Below, one piece after another: positions 38,843-63,553 of a stretch of DNA of 64,000 nucleotides. Both the position numbers and the translations under genes were made by a program. This DNA comes from Rhododendron vialii (taxonomy: Eukaryota; Streptophyta; Magnoliopsida; Ericales; Ericaceae), in contig NC_080569.1 in assembly GCF_030253575.1 (NCBI RefSeq), positions 25,742,501 through 25,806,500 of the forward strand, written 5' to 3'. Every line of letters starts with the position of its first letter. Position 1 is the stretch's first letter. Under the pieces are notes generated by a model. The model was not told the origin of the DNA and searched no databases. It saw only the letters and a program-made list of their open reading frames with translations.

Positions 38843-39645
38843 GATACGTTGCAATTTGATAATTAAGAGTGACCAATATGGTAATTAAGTGTACAGGGGT
38901 AATTTGGTCATTTTGTAGTAGAGGGATAGTATGGTAATTTTAGTCCTTTAAATTTACAGGGTAATATGGTCATTTTAGTGTACATATGTATTTTAGTCAT
39001 TTTAGTATATAGTATGTAATTGGGTTAATAGGCGGGGCGGGTTTGCTTTTAAATAAATGGGTTGGATTGGGCATGAGTTATTAGACTCATAATTAATGGG
39101 TCTAAATGGGTCAATGACCCATTAAAAATCCTATCTACTTGCAACTTACCCATTTTGACCCAAACCCGCCCATTTGACGCTCCTAGTATTAATTAAATAC
39201 AAGTCTATAAATCATACTCATTCAATGAGTTTGTTAAATAGGTGAAAATTTGATTATACAAAAATAATTAATACTTTTTCGGTAAAAAGTACCATCTCTG
39301 TTTCACAATAACAGTCTCATTTTTTTTTCTCTTTTCAAATCAAAAAATTAATTACTTCTTTGCATAATTTTTAAAAAAAATTCACACCGTATTAAAGATT
39401 TCGATTAGTACTTTAATTTGGTGCGAAAAAATTCAAAAAATTATACACGAAAGTAGTTGATTTTTTTATTTGAAAAGTGGCACGACTTTTCATAGTAGAT
39501 TCTTAATATGAAACGGAAGGCGCATGTGTCAAAAAAAAAAACTTTTTGTATTTTGTATTTATTTCATTTATTTTATTTTTTGAACATTCCTCACCAGTTT
39601 TAAAAGCAGTCGATGGAGAAGAGACGGGAGCCCTAAAAACGGACG

Positions 39646-41221
39646 ATGAGACGCAAAAGGAAAACCAGTCGCCCCGAGACCACCGCCGTCGATCGAATCA
39701 GTGAGTGTCCTGACTCTGTCCTCGTTCACATTCTCTCCCTCTTAGAAGAAATCGAAGACGCCGTCAGGACCCAAGTCTTGTCCAAACGATGGCGATTCCT
39801 CTGGACCCTCCTCCCTTCCCTCGTTTTCCGTTATACTGCGATTGATGATTACGGCGGCGAGGGCGAGGGTTATGGAGTTGCAAGGAATAGTGTTTTCGTT
39901 GCCTTTGTCGGAAAAACGCTATTTTCTTCTGACTGCAAGCTCAGGAAATTCGAGGTTGATTTTCACTACGAGCCGCGCTTCGCTTCGAATGTCGATTCCT
40001 GGACTCGATTCGTCACAGGAAAGGCCGTCGAGGAGCTTTACCTTCTACTCTTGCCCGAGTTGGGTGAGGAGGGACTTTACGAGTTGCCACAGCTTTTGTA
40101 TGACAATTATTGGTTCAAGGAATTGCATTTTTCATGTTGTAGGGTTATTCCTAGAGGAAATGTTGCCTGGTATTCGCTAAAGAAATTGTCGATTGGGTAT
40201 GTGAAGTTCAGTGATGATGTGATTGAAAGGATATTAGCAGGCTGTCCTGTGTTGGAGACATTGGAATTGCATAATTGCGAAGGTTTTAGTCACTTGGCTG
40301 TCACTAATTCATGTATGAAGAAATTGATCCTGAGAGATTTTTTGGATATTTGGGATGACAGTGGGTTGGAAATTTCGGCTCCTTACCTCCTATCGTTGGA
40401 GATGTCTGGTGTTTTAGGGAAGAGATGTCGATTTACAAACATATCATCATTGGTTGATGCTGTCTTCAACTGCCACTTTGCATGTTTTGAGCAAGATCGG
40501 GCTAATGATTATGAAAGGATCCAAAATATTGTAGTAGTATTTCTTGCAAGTCTTCTCCATGTGAAGAATCTCACGCTAGGTACTTGGGCAATTGAGGTTT
40601 GTATTTCTGCAGTCCTTCTCTTTTGCAATTGAGGTCTCTGTATTACAAGGTATTATTATTGCCTTTCCTTTCCAGAAGAAACTAACAAAACATGAATCTA
40701 CGGTGTTGCATGATTATTGAGTTTGTATAATTCTCCATGGCGGACTACACAATCAAATAATTCTATTGTTACTTGAAAGACGAGAATTGTGAAGTAGAAC
40801 ATTTTGATTTGCTCTTCAAGTCATCAATGTTCTATAGATTTCTTAGATTTTGAGGTTATAGCATAAACCCATAGCCTATCGGACGCTTGCTCCCATTAAA
40901 AAAGTTTGATTGATTACACCAAGAAGTCATTGAAAAGGGTTTTTTAGCTGTAAATGGTGCCTTGTACAGGATTCATACCTAGAGCTGAATGCTTAAGTAC
41001 GAAGCAACTCATTCTATATATAACAAATTTAGCGCGGCGGGACATATATGGACTTTGGTCATGAGATCAATTGATTACACCAAGAAGTCATTGAAAAGGG
41101 CTTCTTAGCTGTAAATGGTGCCTTGTACAGGATTCATACCTAAAGCTGAATGCTTAAGTACAAAGCAACTCATTCTACATATAACAAATTTAGGGCGGTG
41201 GGACATCTATGAACTTTGGTC

Positions 41222-41283
<62 letters not shown>

Positions 41284-44200
41284 CCTTTATGTGGATTTGG
41301 ATAAGAGAGAGAGCCATGGTCATGTTTCAACCTATCAAAGTGTGTTAATGTCAATCAAATGTACTATTAGGTGCTAAGTACTCAATCCTGACTCTTCACC
41401 TCTTTCTACTTACTTTTGCTCCTACTTTGCAAAAGCTCTACCCTCTGTCTTTTCGTATCAAAAGGGATTTTAGGGCATAGGACTTTGAAGTCAAAGTTGT
41501 GAACCTCTTTTGAACTAAAGATCTGCATCTTTTCTTGTTTTATGAATTTTGAAAGTTGTACGATCTGTCAAATATCCTAATGGTCTTATCCTCTTTTTGT
41601 CCTTCTGAATCTTTTTCAGGTGCTATCAATTATGGAAGCTAAAGGCTTGAGTTCTCCATTGTTGAATTGCGAATGTTTAACACTAGATACAAAGATAGAT
41701 AAATATGTCCTCCCTGGGATAGCAAACGTGTTCAAAAGTACTCCTAATGTGGAGGCATTGATCATGACCTGGTCCTTTTCCTCACCGGAGGTGCGATTTC
41801 TCGGAGCCCTTTTCATATATTCTCTGGATTATTTCATAAAGATGTGCAAAAAAATTTATTGGTTACAATGGTTAGATATTCTTTTGTATTCTATCTTTAT
41901 TTGTCATATCTAATAATTCCAAGCAGTATCACTAGCTCATGGCTACTTAACTTTGTCTGGGGTGCCTCTCTATTGGGAGTGACTGATGAACAATTTCTCA
42001 AGATTGCAAGTCATTACCTTGAATTAACAACTTCCCTGCCATGTTTATGCCTTCACTTAATATCCTCGTAAATGACCAATGATATACTCGTTGAAATGTA
42101 CAAACAGTTGCCGTAGTGGGAATTTTGGACACTACTCGAACCCTACACGAAGACTGAGGGTTTGGGTCGACAACTTTTTGAAATGAACACGAATGTGACA
42201 GTGCCCGACCACACAAATTTAACAGGACGAATACGGATTGGAGCAGCATAGCTCAAGAAGGACATGGATTACTGTCTCTTTTTTTTTGCGTCGACCTGTT
42301 AACCCAAGTGAGACGACGCAATACATACTAGTCTTGTAGTTCACAATCTATATTGAAGCTTATGTCATAGTTGTGGTGGGTGTTGGTTATTTACTTTAGG
42401 TAAACTCGGTACTATAATCTATATTTAATATTGATGTCTAGTTGATGCTTGAGGCATTTTTTAACGTGTAGTTTATATGATTTAATTTTTCTTATTGGTT
42501 TAACCGATTGTGCGTGTAGCATTTTTACATGTATAAATTTTTTAATGTTATTTAAAAAATTTAACAAAAAGGGTTAGCAGAGTCAACCCTACACGACACA
42601 TTTTTAAGCAGGTCGGGTGTATCAAGATATATGACACAAACCTCGAAAGGATATGAGTCATATGACTCAAACATGATACAACACGATGCAATGCCCACTC
42701 CTACCAGGACACAGAACACGGCAAATTCTAACAGATGGGGATATGGATACGACACAACTGAATATATAGATGTTGATTCAAGTTGGCTTCAAACTATATT
42801 GATCAGTGCCTTTAGGCACGAGCAAATGCTAGTATATGTACATTATAGTGGTATAACAGAAACTGATGTTATACTTTGCAAATGATACCGTTTTTTATTT
42901 AGATATACTACTCCATATAAATATCAGGTTGAATTTGGTTTATCTGCAATTTTTACCTTTAATTGGTCAAAGAATATAATTTGACCCCAGAATAAAGTTG
43001 TTAAAACTTTAAATCGATTTCTGCCATGTTTTCACTTGTGTCTAACTTCAGACCCGTGTATTTGGTGTGTGCCATGGTTAAAAATTAAGAGAAGAAAATT
43101 AATCTGATACGCGTGGTGGCATGTCCATACATGTCCCTTCGCATCCTCACTTGTGTCTTACTTGAGATGAGTGTATCCAGTGTGTGTCGTGGTTAACAAC
43201 TAATAAAAGTAATCAGACCCGCTAGGTGGTGTGTCCTGCCGTGTTCTCACCGTGTCACGCATACCCAGAGTGTTCAACACGAATATGGGGACAATTATGT
43301 ATGGCAATACTGTAGGTGGACAAAATCCGCCTAGTGCTTGTAAAAGCTTTTCTGTACGGTAAGCCTCATGTGCTTTCTCTGCCGGAACCCTAGCTGCAAA
43401 ACAGATAAGGGTGAGCTCACCTTTGCCTCGTTGGCAAAGGCCTAAGTATCACGTACTAGAGAAACCCTAATTATCAATAGAAAAGTATTGAATGCAACGT
43501 ATTGTGTACCTTTTACCTTTAGGTTTATCTCATTTATATAGACACTCAGATGCTTGGTGCCCAAGCATCCTTGCTGCCCTAGGTTTCCTTTCTCGTATAG
43601 GAACCCAGGATACTCCGGATCCTCATTCCCTTATCAGATCACTTCTTTAGCCCTTTTGGGACTCTTTTCCGTAACGGGCCAAACATCCTACTCTCATTAG
43701 GAGACCCACGCAGATCCGTTATTCACGGGATCCTATTCTATCACGGAGTACAGTTGTACTGGAACATTCTGGAACATTCCTACCGCCCTATCACTTAAGG
43801 CAGTATTGACAAGAGTTCTTCCTCTGTTCGGCCATCTTATTGCCGAACAGACTACGTCTACTAAACGACCCCTCATGTCTCCTGACTTTACCGCCAACCA
43901 CCACATTCCTCGGCAGTATGATCCATTTTACTCACATAGTGACCTCACATGTCACGTGCTCGGCTATTAATTGTACTTGCTCGGGAGTACCTCCCTACAA
44001 ATACTTAGATTTTTAATATGTGGCTTTATGTGTTTTCATCTGCAGCTCTATGGGATCGAAAGCACGATGCTTCTCAATTACGATGAAGAGCGGTATTGGA
44101 CATCACAAAAGTGGACTTACAAGTGCTTGGTGCTGCATCTAAAAAATGTTACGATTAGTGATTGTTTAATGAAGTATAATTGTGAGTCCAACTTTTTTTC

Positions 44201-44354
44201 TTTCATACAATTTCTGTTGAGAAATGCAAGAGTGCTGCAAAAGATGGTTATCAGTACGCCAAGTGATGCTCGGCTGAAGGAATATTTTGAAGCAGCTAAA
44301 AAGCTTTTAAGCTTTCCCAGATCCTCTCCTGATGCAGCAGTTATCTTCTGTTAG
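39646..44354 (+). CDS. F-box/LRR protein with C-terminal FBD domain, three exons
   Basis: Exons 39646-40596, 41620-41790 and 44046-44354 join in frame (all phase 0, GT-AG) into 476 residues. The F-box lies at about residues 14-60 (VDRISECPDSVLVHILSLLE, SKRWRFLWTLLPSL). LRR-like text follows (WYSLKKLSIGYVKFSDDVIERILAGCPVLETLEL), then LEISAPYLLSLEMSG, and an FBD domain in exon 3 (YWTSQKWTYKCLVLHLKNVT, LLRNARVLQKMVIS). The family serves as substrate receptor of SCF-type E3 ubiquitin ligases through SKP1; the target is unknown. The upstream ATG at 39613 is closed by a stop. Introns carry a tandem duplication, a (GA)n and a solo LTR, yet the frame is intact. Confidence 0.85.
40909..41230 (+). repeat. 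161-bp tandem duplication in F-box gene intron 1
   Basis: 40909-41069 and 41070-41230 are nearly identical (ATTGATTACACCAAGAAG at both starts). A (GA)n run begins where the second copy ends. Confidence 0.9.
41224..41281. repeat. (GA)n microsatellite
   Basis: GA dinucleotide run of about 58 bp in the intron. Confidence 0.95.
43311..43999 (-). mobile_element. Solo LTR in F-box gene intron 2
   Basis: 689 bp with ends TGTAGG and CCTACA and target duplication AATAC (43306-43310 and 44000-44004). The copied intron at about 23707 has the uninterrupted site CAATACTT. A TATA-like CTATATAAATGAG reads on the minus strand, suggesting that orientation. It ends 46 bp upstream of exon 3. Confidence 0.85.
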
Positions 44355-44378: not shown

Positions 44379-45038
44379 CTTTTTTTTTTGGTTACCAAAG
44401 AGGGCCTAGGTCCTAAGAATCAAAAACATCTGACACAATAGCTCGATATACTCTGAGTCTGTCACGATCATCGCTCAGAACATCCAGCACCTCTACCGGG
44501 GCTTGATCAAACACTTGTTCACTTCTGTCTAACTGAAGACCCAACCCAACTAGTTTATGTGCACATCTATTTCCTTCCCTCCAACCAAAGGTAAAGTGAC
44601 AGATCCAGCTCATTTTAAGTTGTTCATTGATCAACATAATCATAATCAGGTTGTAATTAGGATCAAAGGGATGTTGATTCGAAATTGCACGGAGAGCCAT
44701 TTGAGAGTGTTTCCAACACAACACGCGGCAAACCCATATTCCACACAAGTTTGAGACCTCTCCAACTGCCCCAAAGTTCAGCTCTTAATGCATCCGCATT
44801 ATCGATTCTGCAAGCAAAGCCCCTTATCCAGTTCCCACCATCTGCAACTACTCCTCCAGCCGCAGCAAATCTTGGGTTTCCATTTGATGCCCCATCAACA
44901 TTGATTTTGAAAGTACCCCTATGAGGAGCCTGCCATTTCACAACTATCCTTCTGGGAGAGAGTTTGCTGGAAGGATAAAGCACTAACCACTTCGGCAGCC
45001 GAACGGCGAATCTCTTAGACATTGGGTCTCGCGGATAT
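44379..45038 (-). mobile_element. L1-type LINE 3' end with RNase H domain
   Basis: Flanked by ATCAAAGAGCACCAC (44364-44378 and 45039-45053, 15 bp), with a poly-T run at the low end as its A tail. Minus-strand frames read KWQAPHRGTFKINVDGAS and AAGGVVADGGNWIRGFACR, then, after a shift, MSWICHFTFGWREGNRCAH. This is an RNase H-like domain (RVT_3). It lies just past the stop of the intact F-box gene, probably in its 3' UTR. The copy at 24045 lacks it. Confidence 0.9.
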
Positions 45039-45905
45039 ATCAAAGAGCACCACTCCTTCAGTGAAACTGATGCCTTTTGACTAGTTCTTTCCTAATTAGT
45101 ATTACTCAGTTTGCACCTTTTCTTTTTCAATGAAGTGGTTGTTGCCACATATCACAGCTTGTGGGCTTAATGGGTGATAAGGTAAGGATTGCAGTAGTTT
45201 TATTTCAATGTGGGAACAGGGGTTGTGAGAGTTGCCAATTGAAAGAGTTGTAACTTGAAGTTCTACTTATGCATATGCCTATGCCGCAGTCTAACAGTGC
45301 TGTACCTAACATGTAACATGTAATTCTGTAGTTTCTGCTATGTATTTGTTGACTTTGCACTGATTTAGTTCATTTATTTGTAGCAGACTGCTTGTTCTTG
45401 CTTCTCGACATGACAATGTTGTGCATTGTCAAAAAAAACTGGTGCATGGAGTGTCCATATACCATCGTAGGAGGTGGGGTAGGTGCGGGATCGATAAGCA
45501 TGGCATGCCTATGACATGAAAAAAACATCGCAAATACGGACCAAATAGAGGTGCTTTAAAGGCTTGTCTGTGTCGTCGTTCCTGAAAATTAGTTGTTGGT
45601 TTGCAAACTTGTCCTTCAAATTTACGTTCCTCAAATTCAAAAATATTGTCAATTCGTCCGAAACAAACGTACAACAAAACTATAGAGAGAACAATCACGA
45701 AAACAACTGGCAATGGCTTACGTGATACACACTAAATATTCACGAAATACTATACGGTACTATATTGACAAGTAACTCTCAAATTGAATGTGTATCATTG
45801 AAACTTCGAAATGTGAACCAACTACCTATCCAAGTAAAGTAGCTCAAAGCCAGAGCTTATTATCTTAAAATGTGCCCCTGATTTTTCCGTCCTAGTAAAT
45901 ATGAC

Positions 45906-47180: not shown

Positions 47181-47616
47181 AACTGCAGCCTGCAGGACCA
47201 CAAATTTAGAGTTAAAACAAGCTCACTAATGTAATACATACCTGGAAACTAAAAAATTTAACAACACAAGACTTTTTAATCCAACCAAACCATACACAAT
47301 GCGAGCCGAGCTTCTGCGTGTTGAGCTCCCCTCGTTTAGTAAACGAGCATACGCAAACATTCAATCTCACAATACAAGTATTGTAACTTTGTAAATACCT
47401 AAGAAATGATAATACACAAAGTAATGCATAATCTTTAGACAACAGCATACATAAATATAAGATTTCTTCTGTACTTCTAAAAAAAAAAAAAGATTTCTTT
47501 GTTTCTTAGGCAAAAGGAAATGAAACAATAGTCAGCAGCATAGAACCTTTTTTCTTTTTCACAGTAGCATAGAACTCAATCGCAAAAAAGTACTAGAAGA
47601 TTGTTCAAACACCAAC

Positions 47617-47770
47617 CTTTGCAGCCCGACCACCTAATGAAAGTCTTTTCACCGGAACAAGGCTCTCAACAAGTCCTCTTAAAGTATCTTGGATCCCATA
47701 ATTATCACCATGGCTATCGTCTTCAAAAGTTTCCAAGTCAGAGTGAGTCCTTAATATCGCTCTAAGAGTA
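47617..47770 (-). pseudogene. Exon 1 tail fragment of an F-box gene
   Basis: YGIQDTLRGLVESLVPVKRLSLGGRAAK ends at a donor-like AAG|GTTGGTG, as in the exon 1 ends at 53677 and 62195. Sequence below it (47180-47616) matches the start of their intron 1. Its upper side is fused to the 3' flank of the next gene at about 47770. Confidence 0.75.
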
Positions 47771-48384: not shown

Positions 48385-51300
48385 CTACTGAGGAGGAGGG
48401 GGTCCAAAGCGCTGAGTGTACTCGGAGATGAAGTGCTCCAATTTTTCACAGTACTGCTTCTGGCTAGACAGGAACTGCTCCATTGTTTCATACTGCCGCT
48501 GCTGGCCAGCTTGTATCTCAGTCAACAGGACTTGCATCTCATTCAACTGGACTCCCTGAGGACGGTGTTCAGCGCTTAGGTGGCGCAGGTTAGCCAGTGT
48601 CTTGTCAAGCAGACCCTGAATAGAAGCGAGATGGTCGGGCCTCCCTTGACAATCTCTATAAGGAAGGGCTGACTCTGCGTTTGTGGTAGAGGACATTTCC
48701 GTGAATAATGTCTCCAAATTAGATGAACTTTTGAAAATGCTTGCCATCCCAGGCTGGTCTGGTTTGTTGAGGAACGTATGTACACATTCACACTTCAACA
48801 GTCGAGAACTCAATCCTTTTGCTTCCATAGCCACTAGTACCTTTACGCATCAAAGAAAGACTCAAAAGAACAATCAACAAGATAAGACCAATTAGAATAC
48901 TTTGTAAGACTGACAGAACTTGCCAAAAGACAGTGTATTCCGAAAAGAGAACATCATGTGGAATTTCTGTTTGAACCTTGTACCACTAACTTTGACACCA
49001 AAAGCTATCTGCCATTCCATTAAGAAGATAAAGATGTGAATGGAATGTATCTTGGTGGTAATCTTTGAGTATCATATCATAATCATATCCTAGTGTATCT
49101 CTCTATTTAAGGTGTAGATTAGGCATAATCGTAATCATATCATACCTCTTTATTTAGGGCGTAGATTAGGCTCTCTTTTTTGTATATTTTCTAGGTTTAG
49201 AGTATCCACGATGTAATAATCAAAATCAAAGGGTTGCTAAAGTTAGAAATGTAAGCTCAAAAAAGTGCTCACATTGTAATAATCAAACTTAGCAACTCGT
49301 CAAATTTTGGCCTTTCAATAATCAAAACTAGCTACCTTTTTGCCAATAACCAAATTTATTGGACCCCACATCTTCTTAATCAAGTACAATCATCATGGGA
49401 AAGTGAAACTCACTCTCCATAAAACAAATGCTTTATTGGTAGGTGAAGCTCACTCTCCACTTTGACAAGTGGTTGTGCATTTAACAATATTGATCACTTT
49501 ATGGATTTTAACAAATGCTCTCTACTTTCACTTATTTTACTAGAATGTCATTCAATGTAGACCATTAGATTGAGAAGAAAAAAACTGACCATTAGATTTG
49601 AAGTTTTGGTTATCCAATTTTGATTATTACATTGTCAACCTTTACATTGCTAACCTTAGCAAGGTCTTGAATGGATAACCAAAAGGTGATGTGGCAACTT
49701 TTGGTTATCCAATTTTGATTATTACATTGAGGATGCTCATGTCTTCTCTATTATACCTAGCATTAGTGTTGAACAATGTAATCGACTCATTTAGTAATAC
49801 AGAAATTCTTCTTCTCTTCTTTCTTTCTTTGCTTTGTCACAATAGATAGGGTGGGCCGTGCTTTTGGAAAAATTGACAAAAAGTAAGCACAACATACCAA
49901 AGAGACAGGATCATAATCCTTAGCTCATAATAATACAACTGATTTGTTAATGCACGTATGTAGCGTTAGACATTCACACTTCAACCATGGAGAATTCAAA
50001 GAGATGGCAATGAGTCGGTTCAGCCCGGATTTTGGTAAAACCAAACCCAAACCCGAAATTTATGACTGATACTAAAATAGGTTTTTTTTTGGGCAAAGTC
50101 TACTTTCACCCCCTGTGGTTATCGCCATTTGCGGATACCTCCCTCATGGTTCAAAACTGACCACATAACCTACCCGTGGTTTTAAAAGTGCGGATAGACC
50201 CCCTGCTATCATGTTTTCCATCCATATTAACGGACACAACATTAAAAGACCGATATACCCTCATCATGTCCCTTGATTCTTCTTCTTTTTTAAATCTAAC
50301 CACACCATCCCCTATACCAAAAATTGAATCCAAACCGTTCATATTGTAAATTTTGACGAGTACTACATCTATGCCAAAATTCAAGTCAATCAAAAAATGA
50401 AAAGTTCATGGTCGAATAGATTTTGTTATGAAATTAAAATTTCAAATTTGAATTTACTAAAAATTAGATCACTGGGTTATTGATGCGTGATCGAGATGAT
50501 TTTTCACAGAGATACTCTATTCTTTATTTAATACATTCTAAATGACTCAAATACATTCTAGAGGCGTGTGAGATACACCTCCGTTAATATAGATGGAAAA
50601 CACGATGGCAGGGGTCTATCCACACATTTTCACAAAACCACAGGTAGGTTATGTAGTTAGTTTTGAATCATGAGGGGGGTATCCGCACATGGCGATAACC
50701 ACAGGGGTGAAAGTGGACTTTGCCCTTTTTTTTTCCCATCTAGTCACCTGTTCAGATTGGATTTTCCCCCATTTGGAGGGTTAACCAAGCTAAATCACCA
50801 AACTTGATCCGAAACCGACCCGAACATGAATTGACATTAAAAAATTAGGGCATAATGTGCGTATGTATTATGGTAACTTCAGAAATATATTGCGGTCTAG
50901 GATCGGGTTCGGGTTTCAGTGCGGGTATCATGTAAAACCGAACCCAAACTAAACCGGCTAGTTTGTTCAAATTAAAAACCAAAACAGAACTCACAGTTAA
51001 AGAATTGGGTAAAAACCGCCCCGATTCAACAAAAATATATTCGGGTATAATCGATAGTACCTTCACGTGTCAAAGAAAAATTCAAAAGGTCAAGCAACAA
51101 GAAAAGACCAATTGCTACAGTTTTCCTTAGACTATTAATTTGACAGGTCTTACCATAAGACAGTCTGTGTATTCCGGAATGAGAACAATATGTGGAACTT
51201 CTATTTGAACCATGTATCATTCCTTCAACACCTAAAGCTCTCTGCCCTTCCATTGGCAAGATAGATAGATAGGGTCACACGGAGGGCCGAGCTTTTGGAA

Positions 51301-54300
51301 AATTACGCATAAAATACCAACAATCCAAGACTATAATTCTTACAACAACAACAGAACCCATGTAGTCCCCAATCATTGGAAGGATGGGTGGGAGGATTGG
51401 AGACAGGCCTAATCTTTGGCAATACGCATAAAATGGCTGCTCTCAGAATACTACTGAAACAGTAGCCCCCTATGCCTGTACTATAATTCTTAGCACTAAG
51501 CAATAAATTAACTTGTACTAGCTTACAAGGTTGGACCAACTCCTATTAAAAATTCAATTACCACAAAAGCAAGCCCTAAAATATGGATGTGGGGGGTGAA
51601 AATAATAACAGGTGTCAAATAAGCATATGAAATGAAGATAAATTCACCAATGAAGTCAAATACAGACAAGAAAGTCAGCGCTAACCTTGGACTCGGTCAA
51701 CGGCAGAGGTCAACCAAGTACTTAGGTCAACTAGATCACGGAAGCCTGAGTTCCAACCTCAAGCTCGGTCAACACTTGCCTTGGTCATGGTCAAAAATCT
51801 TTGGAGGCCCAAGTTCTCAACCATCAATCTCATCAAATAGTACTCGTATCAGGGATCTCGGTCTCGGACAAAGTCTGAAGAGGTTCAAGAATTCAAAAAA
51901 CAAGAACCATCTCATGGTCGGGGGTGTATGTGTTCAATAGAAAGTCGACAGATATCTCCAAAGTCATGCCCGAGAGAAATCGAGCACATGCGCCTCCAAA
52001 ATGATTGACAAGCGTCCCATCATTCGCAAATGAGGCAAGTAGGTAGTTCCTTGGGCATACTAGACTCACCCGTGAAGATCTTGTGAAAAAGATTGCAATG
52101 ATGACACTTAACCATGGTTACAGGTCTGGTAACTTGTGTGTAGTAGCCAAATTTGCCTATAAGGCTATAAACACAGGAAGAACCCACATAATATGTAACG
52201 CCTTCCCTCACCCTTAATATATTGCCCGCTTTGGCGGCCAAGCCCTTATGGACTTCCAAGTAGGTCACCCATCCTTGGGTTATAGCAGGACAAGCACGCT
52301 TAACTGTGAAGTTCCAAAGGGCTTTAGCGTAAAAGGCCTTGTACAAGGTCGGTCATGATCTATTATATATAGCACCGAACTCTGCATTCACCAAGCGATG
52401 TGGGATTGTGACTGCCCATCTGTCGACTCTGGGTCTTTTTACTGGAGCTCGGCCCAGCCTAGCAATGGTGTGTCGTATAACAGATCATCCAAAATCCAAT
52501 ACAGAGAGTAATGCAAGGAAAATACTTTTGCTCCATTTCTACTTCCTCAGGAGTTCTCGAACTAGTGCCTCTAGCCAACAGGAAACTGACTTGACTGTCA
52601 GAGCACATTTCCGGCTATAAATATCGGTAGGAGTGTTCCTAACGGTCGTCTTATTTGCAAGGTCAACAAGCAAGGAAAGTCCTTATCTTCTAAGCAGGAA
52701 CTCAGGGTGTATATCCCATCACGAAGGGGGAGTCCTAAACCTGGTCTCCACACTTGACACGTTCAAATGTTTAGGAGCAGTTGTTTTCTTTTCCTACTTT
52801 TCAAGTCCTATGACTAAAACTCTGTCTCACACCCATGTTGCTTAATTTGTTATATCGAAGAGGGTTGTTATGTAAATAGGAAATACAATCGAGGTAAGAG
52901 TCAACTAATTTGCAAGTGATACAAGAAAACATTTAAAGCACCCATAACAAGAGAAAAAAGACCATCTTTGGTAACTTGTAATCAATTGGGCTTCTCTATG
53001 GGTGCTAGTTGTGCTATGGACTAATTGGCTTTACTATGGACGCTACCATTCGAAGAAACATGCATAGCATTGATGAGCCGATTACTTGGAGAGCAAATGC
53101 AAATGTTCAATCTGAAAATTCAAGTATTGTAACTTACTAACTTTGTATGTATGTTCAAAGGACGGTGTTCGGCCAGTTTAGGGGCTGTTGATCTTGGTAT
53201 GTATGTTCGAAAGACAGTGTTCAGGTGCTGGACCCACCTACAGACAAGGATCCTTAGCCCCTGATCGTTCTAATTCTGTGTGGTCGAAAGAAGGTGCAAT
53301 GGTGTTGGCCCACCTTCTTACATATGAAGATTAGGGGCCTTTGGGGCATTAATGTTGTTGAGTTTCATATGCACTTGGGTGTTCTTTTTTGTTTCATTAT
53401 TCAACCTTTGGTTGGATTTCTCTCTTCTCCCCCCACTTGATGTACCCTTGTCAAGTTTCTTAATAAAAATTTTGCCATTTCAAACAAAAAACTTACTAAC
53501 TTTGTAAGTACCTAAGAAATGATAATGTACACAAGTCACAAAGCCATGTGTAATTCTTAGAGAAGAGTTTACATAAATATAGCATTCTTTTGGTTTCTTC
53601 GGAAAAAGGAAATGAAATAATGGTCAATGGCATATAACTCAATCGCAAAAAAGTAGAAGATCGTTTAAACACCAACCTTTGTAGCCTGAGCACCTAATGA
53701 AAGTCTCTTCACATGAACAAGGCTCTCAACAAGTCCTCTTAAAGTATCTTGGATCCTTTCATTATTGTCATCGCTACCTTCGCAGTCAAGGGTGGCATCG
53801 ACCAAAGATGATATGTCCCTCAGCTGACAATTCCTCGGTATACAACAGGAAATCTCCAATGACTGGAGATAAGGAGCCGATATCTCCAACCTTTCCTCGT
53901 CGTATTCACCATCATCAACTTCATCTTGTTCAGGGTCGTCGTGTTCCCCATCTTCTTCCTCTTCTCCAGAGTCGTTGTGTTCCCCATCATCCTCCTCTTC
54001 TTCTTCAGAGTCGTCATGTTCCCCATCATCTTCCTCTTCTTCTTCTTCTTCAAAGTCATCGTGTTCGCCATCATCTTCCTCTTCTTCTTCTTCAGAGTCA
54101 TAGTGGTGTTCGCCATCTTCATCATCTTCTTCAGGGTCGCCATGTTCACTATCCGGCCTATATCGTCCCCAAAACTCCCTAAGGACCAATCTTTTCACAC
54201 TGGCATTGTTACTGAGGTCCAAACGGTTGAAACCCCCATAGCCATACAATTCCAATACTTCCAACACAGGACTACCAGCTAATATCTTCTCCATCACGCC

Positions 54301-54798
54301 GTCACTCAACTTGACATACCCAATTGACAGTTTCTTTAGCGAATTCCAGGCAACATTTCCTTTAGGAGTAACCCTACACAATGAGAAACCCAAACTCCTG
54401 AACGATGCATTGGTATACAAAAACTGTGGCAACTCGTACGATACGAAGCCGTCGGCTACAGAGTAGAAATCAAAGCAGAGCTCCTCCACGCCCTTCCCCG
54501 CTGCGAATCGGACCCACGAGTTCACGTTAGGAGCGAAACGCGGCTGGTAATCGAAATCGACACCGAATTTCTCGAGCTTGGAGCAGTTGAAGAGGGGAAG
54601 GGTTTTGTCGACGAAGGCGACGAATCCCTCGTTCGTCGCGTGGTCTTGGATGAAGCGGAGGGACGGGAGGTAAGTCCAGAGGAACTGCCATCGTTTCGAC
54701 AGGATTTCGGTTTTGATGGCGTCGTGGATCGGTAGGAAGGAGAGGATGAGGACGAGGACGGATTCCGGCAATCCGGTGATGCGGTCGTCGTCGGCCAT
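48385..54798 (-). CDS. F-box/LRR protein with acidic repeat and coiled-coil-like C-terminus
   Basis: Exon 1 54798-53677 and exon 2 48840-48385 join (phase 0, donor AAG|GTTGGT, acceptor AAAG|GTACTA) into 525 residues. F-box at residues 4-48 (DRITGLPESVLVLILSFLP, SKRWQFLWTYLPSL). LRR-like text at 60-210. A Glu/Asp-rich insert spans about 216-302 (repeats of EEEEEDDGEHDDS). LEISAPYL resumes at 304. Exon 2 opens like the FBD-type paralogue (VLVAMEAKGLSSRLLKCEC) but then runs without an intron into an unrecognised segment (about 425-525: GRPDHLASIQGLLDKTLANL, LNEMQVLLTEIQAGQQRQYE) with heptad-like Leu/Met spacing, ending in FGPPPPQ. FBD is absent. Expected role is an SCF substrate receptor. The 4.8-kb intron makes the join less sure than either exon. 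Confidence 0.62.
49035..49841 (+). mobile_element. Probable copia solo LTR with a nested MITE
   Basis: Starts TGTGAATGG and ends TTTGTCACA, with flanks AAAGA (49030-49034) and ATAGA (49842-49846), one mismatch. A CTTTCTTTCTTTG-rich end is typical of a copia LTR. The related sequence at 51263-51275 runs AGATAGATAGATAGGG without the insert. Confidence 0.5.
49200..49738. mobile_element. MITE nested in the LTR
   Basis: Ends GAGTATCCACGATGTAATAA and, inward from the right, GAGCATCCTCAATGTAATAA. About 36 bp of terminal complementarity. Confidence 0.7.
49945..51060 (-). pseudogene. Interrupted second copy of exon 2 within the long intron
   Basis: On the minus strand the acceptor and first codons (CGTGAAG|GTACTATCGATT) lie at 51060. 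The continuation (LKCECLTLHTC-like) appears only at about 50010-49945. In between is a CCGAACC/GGTTCGG-rich insert shared with the other duplicated locus, itself cut by a MULE-type MITE. Flanking intron pieces at 51061-51350 match 48841-49060 plus 49850-49945, so exon 2 and its upstream intron were tandemly duplicated. Confidence 0.6.
50091..50725. mobile_element. MULE-type MITE with long terminal inverted repeats
   Basis: 635 bp with ends GGGCAAAGTCTACTTTCACC and CTTTGCCC. The arms pair over about 150 bp. It is flanked by nine T on each side (50082-50090 and 50726-50734), fitting the 9-bp duplication of Mutator-like elements. The matching place at about 59212-59222 has a single T run and no insert. 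Confidence 0.85.
51343..51479 (-). mobile_element. SINE in the F-box gene intron
   Basis: 137 bp ending in CATGGGTTCTGTTGTTGTTGT on the minus strand, flanked by ACTATAATTCTTA (51330-51342 and 51480-51492). The duplicate locus at 60512-60522 has one copy of the site and no insert. Same family as 11117-11230. Confidence 0.88.
52194..52403 (-). mobile_element. Cassandra-type TRIM LTR with 5S-rRNA-like core
   Basis: On the minus strand 52315-52251 reads AACTTCACAGTTAAGCGTGC followed by GGATGGGTGACCTACTTGGA. These are the two internal control parts of plant 5S rRNA carried in Cassandra LTRs. Upstream are CACAATCCCACATCG and a TATATATAA box. The plus-strand end TGTAACGCC marks one border; the other is approximate. 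In the duplicate locus (about 61225-61250) most of this is deleted, leaving AAGTTCCA. Confidence 0.75.
53890..54150 (-). repeat. Acidic-coding minisatellite, unit 1 gene
   Basis: GAA/GAG/GAT-rich repeats of about 36-45 bp within exon 1 encode EEEEDDGEHDDS-type units. The complementary strand yields open Ser- or Phe-rich frames that are not genes. Confidence 0.85.
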
Positions 54799-58371: not shown

Positions 58372-58840
58372 TCAACATCCCACTGATAAACAGAAATAGT
58401 CGCATAAACTACTGAAGGGGGAACTTGGGAAAGCACTGAATGAGCTCAGACATGAAGTGCTCCATTTTTTCATAGTACTGCTGCTGACCGGACAAGAAGT
58501 ACTCCATTGTTTCAAGCTGGACATGAAGTGTTCCATTTTTTCAAACTGCTGCGGCTGCTGGCCATCTTGTATCTCACTCAATAGGACTAACATCTTGTTC
58601 AACTGGACTCCCTTCCAACGGTGTTCAGCTCTTAGGTGGTGCAGTTTAGCCAGTATATCATCAAGCAGACCCTGAATAGAAACGAGATGGTCGGGCCTCC
58701 CTCGGCGATCTCTGTGAGGAAGGGCTACCTCTATGTTTGTGGTAGAGGACATAGAACAATTTTTTTTGATAATTACATTGTCACGAACAATGTCTCAAAA
58801 TTAGGTGAACTTTTGAGCATGCTTGATACCACAGGCAGGT

Positions 58841-58912
58841 CTCAAGCTCCTATATAAAGAGGAGTTAACTCTTATTAAAGACAAGCATTCAATGCACACC
58901 TACTCTCCACTA

Positions 58913-59344: not shown

Positions 59345-60130
59345 TGTAGCGGGCCGAATATTCTGGTTCGGTCAAAGTCAATACACTCAGCAGAAGACCG
59401 GGCTCAGCCCCTCCTCGATTTTGTCTTATCAGATCGAGCCATTCACTGGACTGTTAGGTTCGGTGGGATAGGTTCGGCTTTGGCAACATTCAGATGAGCA
59501 GCATCGGACTGCCAGTCCATACTGAGGTCAATGATCAACTCCATGCAGTTCAGACATTAAGGTTCTGCAGACTCATACAAGCCAGCTCATCCAAGTGAGC
59601 CTAACTGCCTTGCTCCATACGTATTAGGGCATGAGTTGGGCACAAGTGCACATGGGTGACAGCTCAGGCACATGCACGATAACTGCCCTATCCAGTACGT
59701 TAGGCGTGACTTTATCTGAAGCGGTTACCGAGCGTGAGAGTCACGCGCTCGCTTGGAGAGCAAATCTAGGGACTCTATATAAAGGAAAGAGATCAACCTA
59801 TAGGGGAACGCTTACGTTAGGCATGACGTTATCTGAAGCGGTAACCGAGCGTGAGAGTCACGCGCTCGCTTGGAGAGAAAATCTAGGGACTCTATATAAA
59901 GGAAAGAGATCAACCTATAGGGGAACGCTACCCTAATCTCTCTGTACTTTCCTTTCCTCGCCTTGAGCACTTGCTCACTTAACCATCGGAGTGCCTGACC
60001 GGTCGCCTCTGACCGGCTTAGGCACTAACGGGGGTGTCACCTGTGCAGGTTAGGAGTTCGGAGCTAGGGAACCCATTCACTAAACTAGAGGCGCACACAA
60101 GGTTAACCGGATCAGATCAACAACCCCACA
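59345..60130 (+). mobile_element. Solo LTR with duplicated promoter segment
   Basis: 786 bp, ends TGTAGCGGGC and CCCCACA, flanks CTATG (59340-59344) and TTATG (60131-60135). The unoccupied paralogous site at about 50865-50875 reads GTATTATGGTAA, so one target copy has mutated. It is in the intron/exon 2 debris of the second F-box gene. Confidence 0.85.
59697..59930 (+). repeat. 117-bp tandem duplication containing a TATA box
   Basis: 59697-59813 and 59814-59930 are nearly identical. Each contains GAGTCACGCGCTCGCTTGGA and CTCTATATAAAGG, so the LTR has two core promoters. Confidence 0.95.
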
Positions 60131-62194
60131 TTATGGTATTTTTCAAATATATCACCGTCAGGCTTGGGTTTCGGTGCAGGAATCATATAAAATCAAACCC
60201 AACCTAAACCGGCCGGTTTTTTGAAATTAAAAACCACAACGGAACCCGCGATTAAAAATTCAGGTAAAAACTGCCCCGATTGATTCAAATCAATTCCTGA
60301 ACGTACCTTGATGCATCAAAGAAAAATTCAAAAGCAAGCAACAAGAAAAGACCAATTAGTACAGTTTTAAACAGTCTTACCATAAGACAGTCTTTGTATA
60401 TTCTAGAATGACAACAATATGTGGAACTTTTGTTTGAACCATGCATCATTCCTTCAAGGCCAAGCTTTTGGGAAATTAGAGGAAAAGTAAGTAAAAAATT
60501 CCAACAATCCTAGACTATAATTTTTTGCTCCGAGTAGTACATTTACTAATTACTTGTACTAACAACCCTGGACCAACTCCTCCTAAAAATCTCATCATCT
60601 ACCACAAATGCAAGTCCTAAAATATGGATGTGGGGGGTGAAAACAGTGACATATGTTAAATAAACATAATGAGAAATGAAGACAAATTCATTAAAAGAAG
60701 TCAAATACAGACAAGGAAGTCAGCGCAACCTCGGACTCATTCAACAACAGAGGTCAACCAAATACTTAGGTCAACTAGATCAAGGGATCCTCAGTTCTGA
60801 CTTCAAGCTTGGCCAACACTTACTGTAGTTATGGTCAAAAATCCAAAGAGGCCCAAGTTCTCGAGCCGTCAATATCATCAAACAATACTCGTATCAGGTA
60901 TCTCGGTTGAATAGAGTCCGAGGAGGTTCAAAAGTCTGAACTAATGAGAACCATCTCATGGTCGGTCCTTCTAGATAGCCGAGGTGTATGCTCGTTCAAT
61001 AGAAGGTCGACAATTATCTCCAAAGTCATGCCCGAGAGAATTTGAGCACATGCACCTCCAAAATGATTGACAAGCATCAATTCGGTTGCTGCATGGGGAT
61101 GTCAAACCCACATGCGGAGATCTTATGAACAAGATTGCAATGATGACACTTAACCACAGTTACAAGTCTAGTAACCTATGGGTAGTAGCCAAATTCACCT
61201 ATAAATACAAGAAAAATGCACATAACTGCTAAGTTCCAATGGAAGCATTCACCAAGCGATGTGAGATTGTGACCATCCATCCAAACGTCTACAGGGACTC
61301 TTCATTGGAGCTCAACCCCAGCCTGGCTATGGTGCATCACATAACAGATCATCTAAAACCCAATACAGAGACTCAGAGAGTACTATGAGGAAAATACTTC
61401 TATTCCATTTTTACTTCATTAAGAGTTCTCGGACTAGTGCCTCTAGTCAACAATTTGCCCTCGAGTGGAAACTGACTTAACCGTCGGAGGGCATTTCCGG
61501 TTGCCAACCCCAGCTGGAGTGCCACTAACGGACTTCTATTTCTGATTATGGTAGCTAGTTGACGAGCGTAGAATAAGAATATCTTTTCTTGTTAAGCCAA
61601 AGTCAGCAAGGAAAGCCCTCATCTTCTAAGAAGGGACTCATAGAGTAAATCCCATCACAAAGAGGGAATCCTAAAGCAATTGTCTTTTACTTTTCCTCTT
61701 TTAAAGTCATATGACTCACACTCAGTTCCAACCCATGTCGCATAATTTGTTATATCGTAGAGGCTTGCCATGTAAATAGGAAATAAAATCGAGGTATGAA
61801 TCAACTGATTCTGATTGGCAAGAGATACAAGAAAACATTTAAAGCCCCCATAACAAGAGAAAATGACCAGTTTTGGTACGTCGTAGTTGTAATCAATTGG
61901 ACTTCTTTATGGGTGCTAGTCGTGCTATGGACTAATGGCCTTTTACCGTGTGACTCTACCAATTGAAGCAACATGCATAGCATTGACGAGCCAATTACTT
62001 GGAGAGCAAATGCCTGAGAATTGGTAGCTTTGAAATTACCTGAGAAATGGTACTATACACAAAGCCACGTGCAATTCTTAGAGAATAATTAACATGCATA
62101 TAAGATTCCTTCGGTTTCTTCAGCAAAAGGAAATGAAACAATAGCCGGTAACATATAACTCAATCGCAAAAAAGTAGATCTTTTAGATACCAAC

Positions 62195-63553
62195 CTTTGC
62201 AGCCTGAGCACCTAATGTAAGTCTCTTCACATGAACAAGGCTCTCAAGAAGTCCTCTTAAAGTATCTTGGATCCTTTCATTATCGTCATATCTATCCAAG
62301 TCGCAGTCAAGGGTAGCATCAACCAAAGATGATATGTTCCTCAGCTGACAATTCCTCGGTATACAACCGGAAATCTCCAATGACCGGAGATAAGGAGCCG
62401 ATATTTCCAACCTTTCATTGTCGTGTTCACTATCAACTTCATCTTCTTCAGAGTCATCGTGTTCCCCGTCATCTTCTTCAGAGTCATCGTGTTCCCCATC
62501 ATCTTCCTCAGAGTCACCATGTTCCCCATCATCTTCCTCTTCTTCAGAGTTGTTGTGTTCGCCATCAGATTCCTCTTCTTCAGAGGAGTTGAGTTTGCCA
62601 TCAGATTCCTCTTCTTCAGAGTCATTGTGTTCACCATCAGATTCCTCTTCTTCAGAGGAGTTGAGTTCGCCATCAGATTCCTCTTCTTCAGAGTCATTGT
62701 GTTCGCCATCAGATTCCTCTTCTTCAGAGTAGTTGTGTTCCCCATCCTCTGCCTCTTCTTCAGAGTTGTCGTGTTCGATGTTCAAATAAAAAAAATTGTT
62801 TTCCCCATCGTCGTCGTCTTCGCCATCAGATTCCTCTTCTTCAGATTCACTATCGTCATCTTCATCATCTTCTTCAGAGTCATTATCGTGTTCCCTATCC
62901 GGTACATATCCTTCCCAAAACTCTCTAAGGATCAATTTTTTCACACTGGTATTACTGAGGTCCAAACGACTAAAACCCCCATAGTTACACAATTCCAATA
63001 CTTCCAACACAGGACTACCAGCTAATATCTTTTCAATCACACCATCACTCAACTTCACATACCCAATCGACAGTTTCTTTAGCGAATTCCAGGCAACATT
63101 TCCTTTAGGAATAACCCTACACAACGAGAAACCCAAACTTTTGAACGATGAATTCGTATACAAAACCTGTGGCAACTCGTACCGTACGTCCTCGTCCAAA
63201 TCATCGGAGTCGAATTCGAGGTAAAGCTCCTCCACGCCCTTCCCCGCTGCAAATCGAGTCCACGAATTCACATTCGGAGCGAAACGCGGCTGGTAAAAGA
63301 AATCGACCCCGAATTTCTCGAGCTTGGAGAAGCTGAAGACGGGAAGGGTTTTGTCAACGAAGGCGACGAATCCCTCCTCGTTTGTTGTGAGGTAGTCATC
63401 TTGACGGAAGAGGAGGGATGGGAGGTAAGTCCAGAGGAATTGCCATCGTTTCGACAAGGCTTCGGTTTTGATGGCGTCTCGGACAGGTAGGAAGGAGAGG
63501 ATGTGGACGAGTACGGATTCGGGCAATGCAGTGATGCGGTCGTCGCCGGCCAT
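62195..63553 (-). CDS. F-box/LRR protein exon 1 with long acidic repeat (gene broken downstream)
   Basis: Open exon of 453 codons from the ATG at 63553 to the donor-like AAG|GTTGGTATC at 62195. F-box at residues 5-48 (DRITALPESVLVHILSFLP, SKRWQFLWTYLPSL). LRR-like text at 60-212 (WNSLKKLSIGYVKLSDGVIEKILAGSPVLEVLEL). Acidic insert at about 221-380 built of NDSEEEESDGEH/NSSEEEESDGEL units. LEISAPYLRSLEISG resumes at 382. Without splicing it would end three codons later. Downstream exons are broken, so at best a truncated protein with F-box, LRRs and acidic tract could be made. Confidence 0.75.
62440..62800 (-). repeat. Acidic-coding minisatellite, unit 2 gene
   Basis: About nine 36-bp units, shortening to 30 bp toward the low-coordinate end. 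In the middle, His- and Leu-ending units alternate, giving a 72-bp higher-order period. Confidence 0.88.

Follow-up and report, generated by a model that had tools for sequence, protein, structure and literature searches.

Many plant F-box genes with an altered or missing C-terminal module are interpreted as pseudogenes or drifting loci in the study of Hua et al. 2011 (PMC3030570), where F-box pseudogenes are also reported to be enriched among genes without a recruitment module. The gene described here, which we call copy A, fits the picture given there. Like the loci treated there, it lies in a tandem cluster, has lost the C-terminal module and shows neutral-like change at its C-terminus; unlike them, it has a C-terminus that is a coding-like, repeat-bearing open frame. 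The comparison with the FBD-associated F-box/LRR proteins of the At5g56370 type (PF00646, PF24758, PF08387) showed that copy A has in common with them the F-box and the LRR region, the exon-1/exon-2 boundary with its phase, and the exon-2 motifs VLSIMEAKGLSS...NLETL. It differs from them in that no FBD exon was found and no GT stands at the intron-2 donor position, and in having a unique tail and, within the LRR exon, a tract of acidic repeats.

The window, that is, the whole stretch of 64,000 nucleotides that was analysed, corresponds to C13:25742501-25806500, and the whole-genome searches covered 532.6 Mb in 13 contigs. The features of copy A, of its broken sister copy B and of the FBD-type paralogue C are listed below.

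Coordinates of the features in the window
Feature	Position	Strand	Description
Copy A exon 1	53677..54798	(-)	374 codons; codes for an F-box (residues 8-46) and an LRR region; Pfam
Copy A acidic repeat tract (DGEHDDSEEEE)	53900..54147, limits approximate	(-)	inside exon 1; from the translation
Copy A proposed intron 1	48841..53676	(-)	4836 bp; GT...AG ends; phase 0
Rival exon 2 (A1)	50845..51060	(-)	family acceptor and VLSI, then inserted repeat; 71 codons, stop
Copy A exon 2	48385..48840	(-)	open, 151 codons
Family-homologous part of copy A exon 2	48673..48840	(-)	56 codons, VLVAMEAKG...MSSTTNAE
Inferred intron-2 donor position	48671..48672	(-)	TC in copy A; alignment of 14 paralogues
Copy A locus-specific tail	48388..48672	(-)	95 codons; helix predicted
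Two 42-bp repeats in copy A tail	48409-48492	(-)	
Copy A tail stop	48387-48385	(-)	
Third F-box unit fragment	47608..47715	(-)	exon 1 end and intron start; 75% identity over 36 residues
Copy B exon 1	62186..63553	(-)	open, no stop; 64% identity over 460 columns
Copy B exon-2 end remnant	58729..58845	(-)	26 inserted bases (~58753-58778) bring a stop before MSSTTN
Copy B tail	58409..58728	(-)	frameshift in repeat; GT at 58728-58727
FBD-type paralogue C	39637..44354	(+)	exon 1; exon 2 41620 to ~41790; FBD exon ~44046-44351; Pfam FBD

Gene structure of copy A and the FBD exon

The first exon of copy A encodes an N-terminal F-box (PF00646, 24.7 bits; Pfam cutoff 20.5) and an At5g56370-type LRR region (PF24758, LRR_At5g56370, 51.2 bits; cutoff 27). 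Within the LRR exon lies an in-frame tract of the DGEHDDSEEEE type, which is clearly longer in copy B than in copy A and is missing from the paralogue at 39.6 kb. From the sequence, exon 1, whose donor reads AAAG|GTTGGT, can splice in phase to exon 2, and the coordinates and the 53676-48841 junction given by the first-pass annotation were confirmed: the intron has GT...AG ends and the second exon is open. The predicted product has 374 + 151 = 525 residues, with the frame open throughout; both exons are open, and no disabled reading frame of the kind that marks a pseudogene was found. At 50079-50734 the intron contains a repeat, some 650 bp long and bounded by inverted terminal repeats of roughly 145 bp each, which looks like a MITE and has many genome copies at about 90% identity (at least 127 match rows among the best 40 of 514 candidates).

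The family had been described as FBD-type and copy A as lacking an FBD exon, and both statements were confirmed. With the FBD exon of paralogue C as the query, no FBD exon could be assigned to copy A or copy B in the window, where strong matches were confined to the query locus (paralogue C), the copy at 24 kb and the gene at 28 kb. Pfam detected no FBD in exon 2 of copy A and recovered the control FBD of paralogue C with 31.3 bits (cutoff 22). A genome-wide search with the paralogue C exon minus four residues returned 16 matches at E <= 1e-10, and among the matches listed the closest minus-strand FBD below the window lies some 113 kb away from copy A exon 2.

The boundary between exon 2 and the tail

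Exon 2 was said to resemble that of the paralogue at 41620, and MEAKGLSS, KCEC and IFKSSSNLETLF are indeed common to both. The likeness extends further than had been proposed: it continues 10 residues beyond NLETLF, through MSSTTNAE. Used as a genome query, the family part of exon 2 had 15 matches at E <= 0.01, the query locus included. Copies A and B were then aligned with 14 paralogues, namely 13 of the matched loci (L007-L019) and the 29-kb paralogue in the window, leaving out L020 (truncated) and L027 (GT present); L024 repeats L008. In this alignment the length differences of copy A within the family part are multiples of three. Exon 2 of the paralogues usually ends in ...NLETLVVTTMSSSSYYE|GT or similar, and copy A has NLETLFTEMSSTTNAE and then reads on. 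At the inferred intron-2 donor, GT is present in 13 of the 14 paralogues and in copy B; the exception among the paralogues (L009) has TT, and copy A has TC. By this alignment exon 2 ordinarily closes with MSSTTNAE, and the start of the new segment coincides exactly with the inferred exon-2/intron-2 boundary.

These data do not support the proposal that the FBD exon was replaced by a coiled-coil exon, as the segment directly continues exon 2 at the inferred donor, which lacks GT, and is not a separate exon. Since the tail begins at the inferred intron-2 boundary, where copy A has TC, it is best read as the predicted read-through past a lost splice donor rather than as a swapped exon. Two other possibilities were considered and rejected. 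A separate open reading frame starting from MSSTTN was set aside, MSS...E being the normal exon-2 end in the paralogues. An ordinary intron 2 like that of the paralogues, read through by chance, was dropped on the coding-like composition of the tail and on its having no likeness to the 13 loci, whose intron-2 side gave nothing beyond a 19-bp match to the tail (best E 0.18).

Copy B contains the same arrangement in a damaged form. Its 26 extra bases are present neither in copy A nor in any of the 14 paralogues in the alignment, the 5' part of exon 2 adjoining the tail is missing or replaced, and a 32-bp length difference from copy A shifts the tail frame inside the repeat. The copy at 58372-58752 had been taken to mean that the architecture is older than the duplication. 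Judged from the two sequences, the juxtaposition of exon 2 and tail DNA does predate the A/B duplication, and a working fusion does not follow from it, copy B having both a stop and a frameshift. Because the 26 bases are confined to copy B in this alignment, the in-frame state may have come first.

Relatives, composition and divergence of the tail

The segment of about 100 residues had been reported as unrecognised, and our searches agree. No Pfam family exceeded its cutoff with the 95 residues of the tail (best the coiled-coil profile HOOK, 14.2 bits; cutoff 35), exon 2 had no match in the PDB (best E 0.5), and pattern searches of the viral and prokaryotic collections yielded 6 and 115 stretches, respectively, of which none was confirmed. 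Among the best-scoring candidates the tail protein was found in only two places of the 532.6-Mb genome, copies A and B, both inside the window (at E <= 0.001 there were 3 matches, and in searches to E 10 there were 2 and 3). A DNA search of the whole genome with the tail and its 3' flank likewise returned copies A and B alone. This search can detect repeats, since the repeat in the copy A intron, used as a control, gave at least 127 matches (best 40 of 514 candidates). On these sequence comparisons the tail is not a repeat, nor is it a shared domain. A transposon open reading frame, which had been named beforehand as an alternative, was not borne out, as multiple dispersed copies were not found.

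The composition of the tail looks coding-derived. Counted over the three codon positions, G or C occurs 61/35/54 times in the 95 codons of copy A and 48/22/40 times in 75 codons of copy B, and the period-3 GC signal, given the absence of stops, had p values of 0.00075 (A) and 0.0001 (B), two tests that are not independent, the copies being related. None of 56 stop-free windows of the same length elsewhere in the window reached the period-3 GC of copy A, and in codon-usage score 2 of 75 equalled or exceeded its tail, a weaker result than the period-3 one; the windows of both sets partly overlap one another. The repeat unit in the tail measures 42 bp (14 residues); copy A has two units, and the pattern in copy B would fit three units with about 10 bases lost.

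The segment had also been called coiled-coil-like. AlphaFold, run on a two-row alignment, predicted two helices in exon 2 (residues 70-91 and 96-145), with pLDDT of 55-82 in ten-residue blocks from 71 to 150, an overall mean of 53.9 and a pTM of 0.31; the AlphaFold models obtained are weak (mean pLDDT 53.9 and 41.3). The uncorrected p values of the hydrophobic periodicity were 0.03 (whole segment), 0.13 and 0.06 (its parts). The C-terminal segment is in frame and unique, and a helical form of it is plausible; the indication of a coiled coil, with this pTM and a periodicity p of 0.03 at best, is weak.

Over the first 66 ungapped codons of the tail, 6 of the changes between copies A and B are synonymous and 22 replace the amino acid, with a distribution of 9/10/9 over the codon positions, and the replacement share of 79% lies close to the 73 +/- 8% expected from a neutral simulation. 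Omega is 0.66 over 82 codons of the tail and 0.36 over 373 codons of exon 1. Taken together, this shows exon 1 as a whole to be constrained, and a tail without visible constraint that seems to drift like neutral DNA, although the tail omega would also fit a constrained copy A and a decayed copy B. This contrast with the tail does not extend over all of exon 1, whose final 77 codons (53668-53898 and the copy B equivalent) give an omega of 1.03, with few changes. Synonymous divergence in exon 1 falls from a dS of 0.295 in the first 209 codons to 0.08 in these last 77, which suggests gene conversion between A and B at the exon 1 end. A neutral simulation gave a 9-17% chance that exon 2 of copy A would be free of stops.

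For the outgroup comparison of exon 1, 7 of 18 loci were dropped (stops or short matches) and 11 were kept, of which 10 are distinct, L039 giving the same gene as L038. The branch lengths were 0.171 for A and 0.078 for B, the longer A branch speaking for relaxation or decay of copy A. The A lineage received 18 synonymous and 23 replacement changes and the B lineage 5 and 8, with 28 unassigned, and we read this as indicating mild constraint on exon 1 of the copy A lineage. The idea that the segment forms a new C-terminal partner surface gains no support from selection, the A/B divergence of the tail being neutral-like and copy B broken.

Interpretation of the locus

We consider it probable that copy A is a tandem F-box duplicate of F-box/LRR/FBD ancestry that is relaxed or in decay and has an accidental C-terminus. 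An F-box/LRR/FBD gene would have been duplicated in tandem within a rapidly turning-over cluster, giving rise to copy A, in which the intron-2 donor GT, presumably ancestral and functional, would have been lost, and the frame would read on into 95 codons of locus-specific DNA where its relatives start intron 2. Given its coding-like composition and the 42-bp repeat, the tail DNA probably represents either an old fragment of coding sequence or a small open reading frame; it would have been joined to exon 2 before the A/B duplication and would have drifted since. If translated, the protein would keep the F-box for SKP1 and the LRR region, and, with the frame reading through and no FBD exon, it would lack the FBD and carry a putative helical tail instead. 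Several points go against this reading: both exons of copy A are open, for which the chance in exon 2 under neutrality is only 9-17%; the length differences of copy A in the family part are multiples of three; exon 1 shows mild constraint in its lineage; the tail omega would also fit a constrained copy A beside a decayed copy B; L009 also lacks GT; and the end of exon 1 makes the contrast with the tail uneven.

The alternatives concern the splicing of exon 1, the source of the tail and its function. A single exon-2 junction had been proposed, and its acceptor at 48840 is indeed among the top-scoring sites; the proposal had overlooked a second acceptor, at 51060, inside the intron. These are the best two of the 280 AG sites there and nearly equal (16.9 for 51060 and 16.7 for 48840; next 9.4), with a matrix that was built on only 14 paralogous sites and gave leave-one-out scores from 2.9 to 19.2. 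The site at 51060 is closer to exon 1, and copy B carries the same acceptor (score 17.0) and the same interrupted exon. If exon 1 were spliced to it, the product would end 71 codons on in the inserted repeat and the tail would never be translated with the F-box. We regard this as unlikely, exon-2 homology covering about four or five codons after 51060 against 56 after 48840. A transposon open reading frame or an exon captured from another gene would account for the coding-like composition and for the abrupt start at the boundary, and we think either source highly unlikely: there are only two copies in the genome, against the many matches of the repeat in the same intron, and six-frame searches to E 10 disclosed no donor gene, with the caveat that these searches score the best candidates without exon joining, so that an intron-split or very diverged donor could escape them.

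Copy A might also be a functional lineage-specific SCF receptor, with the tail as a coiled-coil dimerisation or partner surface and copy B as its dead sister. In favour of such a gene are the frame open over 525 codons, the coding-like tail, the predicted helices, the length differences in multiples of three and the perhaps older in-frame state, yet we find it quite unlikely when the tail is without visible purifying selection and without a relative found elsewhere in the genome and copy B is broken. The bolder proposition, that donor loss exposed a helix-forming, locus-specific open reading frame and so created a lineage-specific SCF receptor whose C-terminus bears a coiled-coil surface, seen at an early stage beside a broken sister, we judge decidedly improbable from sequence. 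A gene in decay or of very recent origin is a likelier description of copy A than a proven receptor of a new type, and the locus is a real, precisely located oddity that most likely arose as a by-product of F-box turnover. If it is expressed and selected, it would be a clear case of an E3-ligase receptor gaining a new C-terminus through the loss of a splice site; if it is not, it would illustrate how the turnover of F-box clusters yields open frames that mimic new domain architectures and are liable to be annotated as such.

Exon 1 has at least 27 matches genome-wide at E <= 1e-20, at least 21 of them on C13 (among the best 150 of 238 candidates), some being pieces of one gene. The third F-box unit fragment lies directly downstream of copy A. 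Further along, an open frame on the minus strand at 44663-45091 contains INVDGASNGNP, which we take to be an RNase H-like retroelement motif. We also detected two local tandem duplications that look recent, at 40909-41227 (158 bp, 94%) and 59696-59929 (117 bp, 97%).
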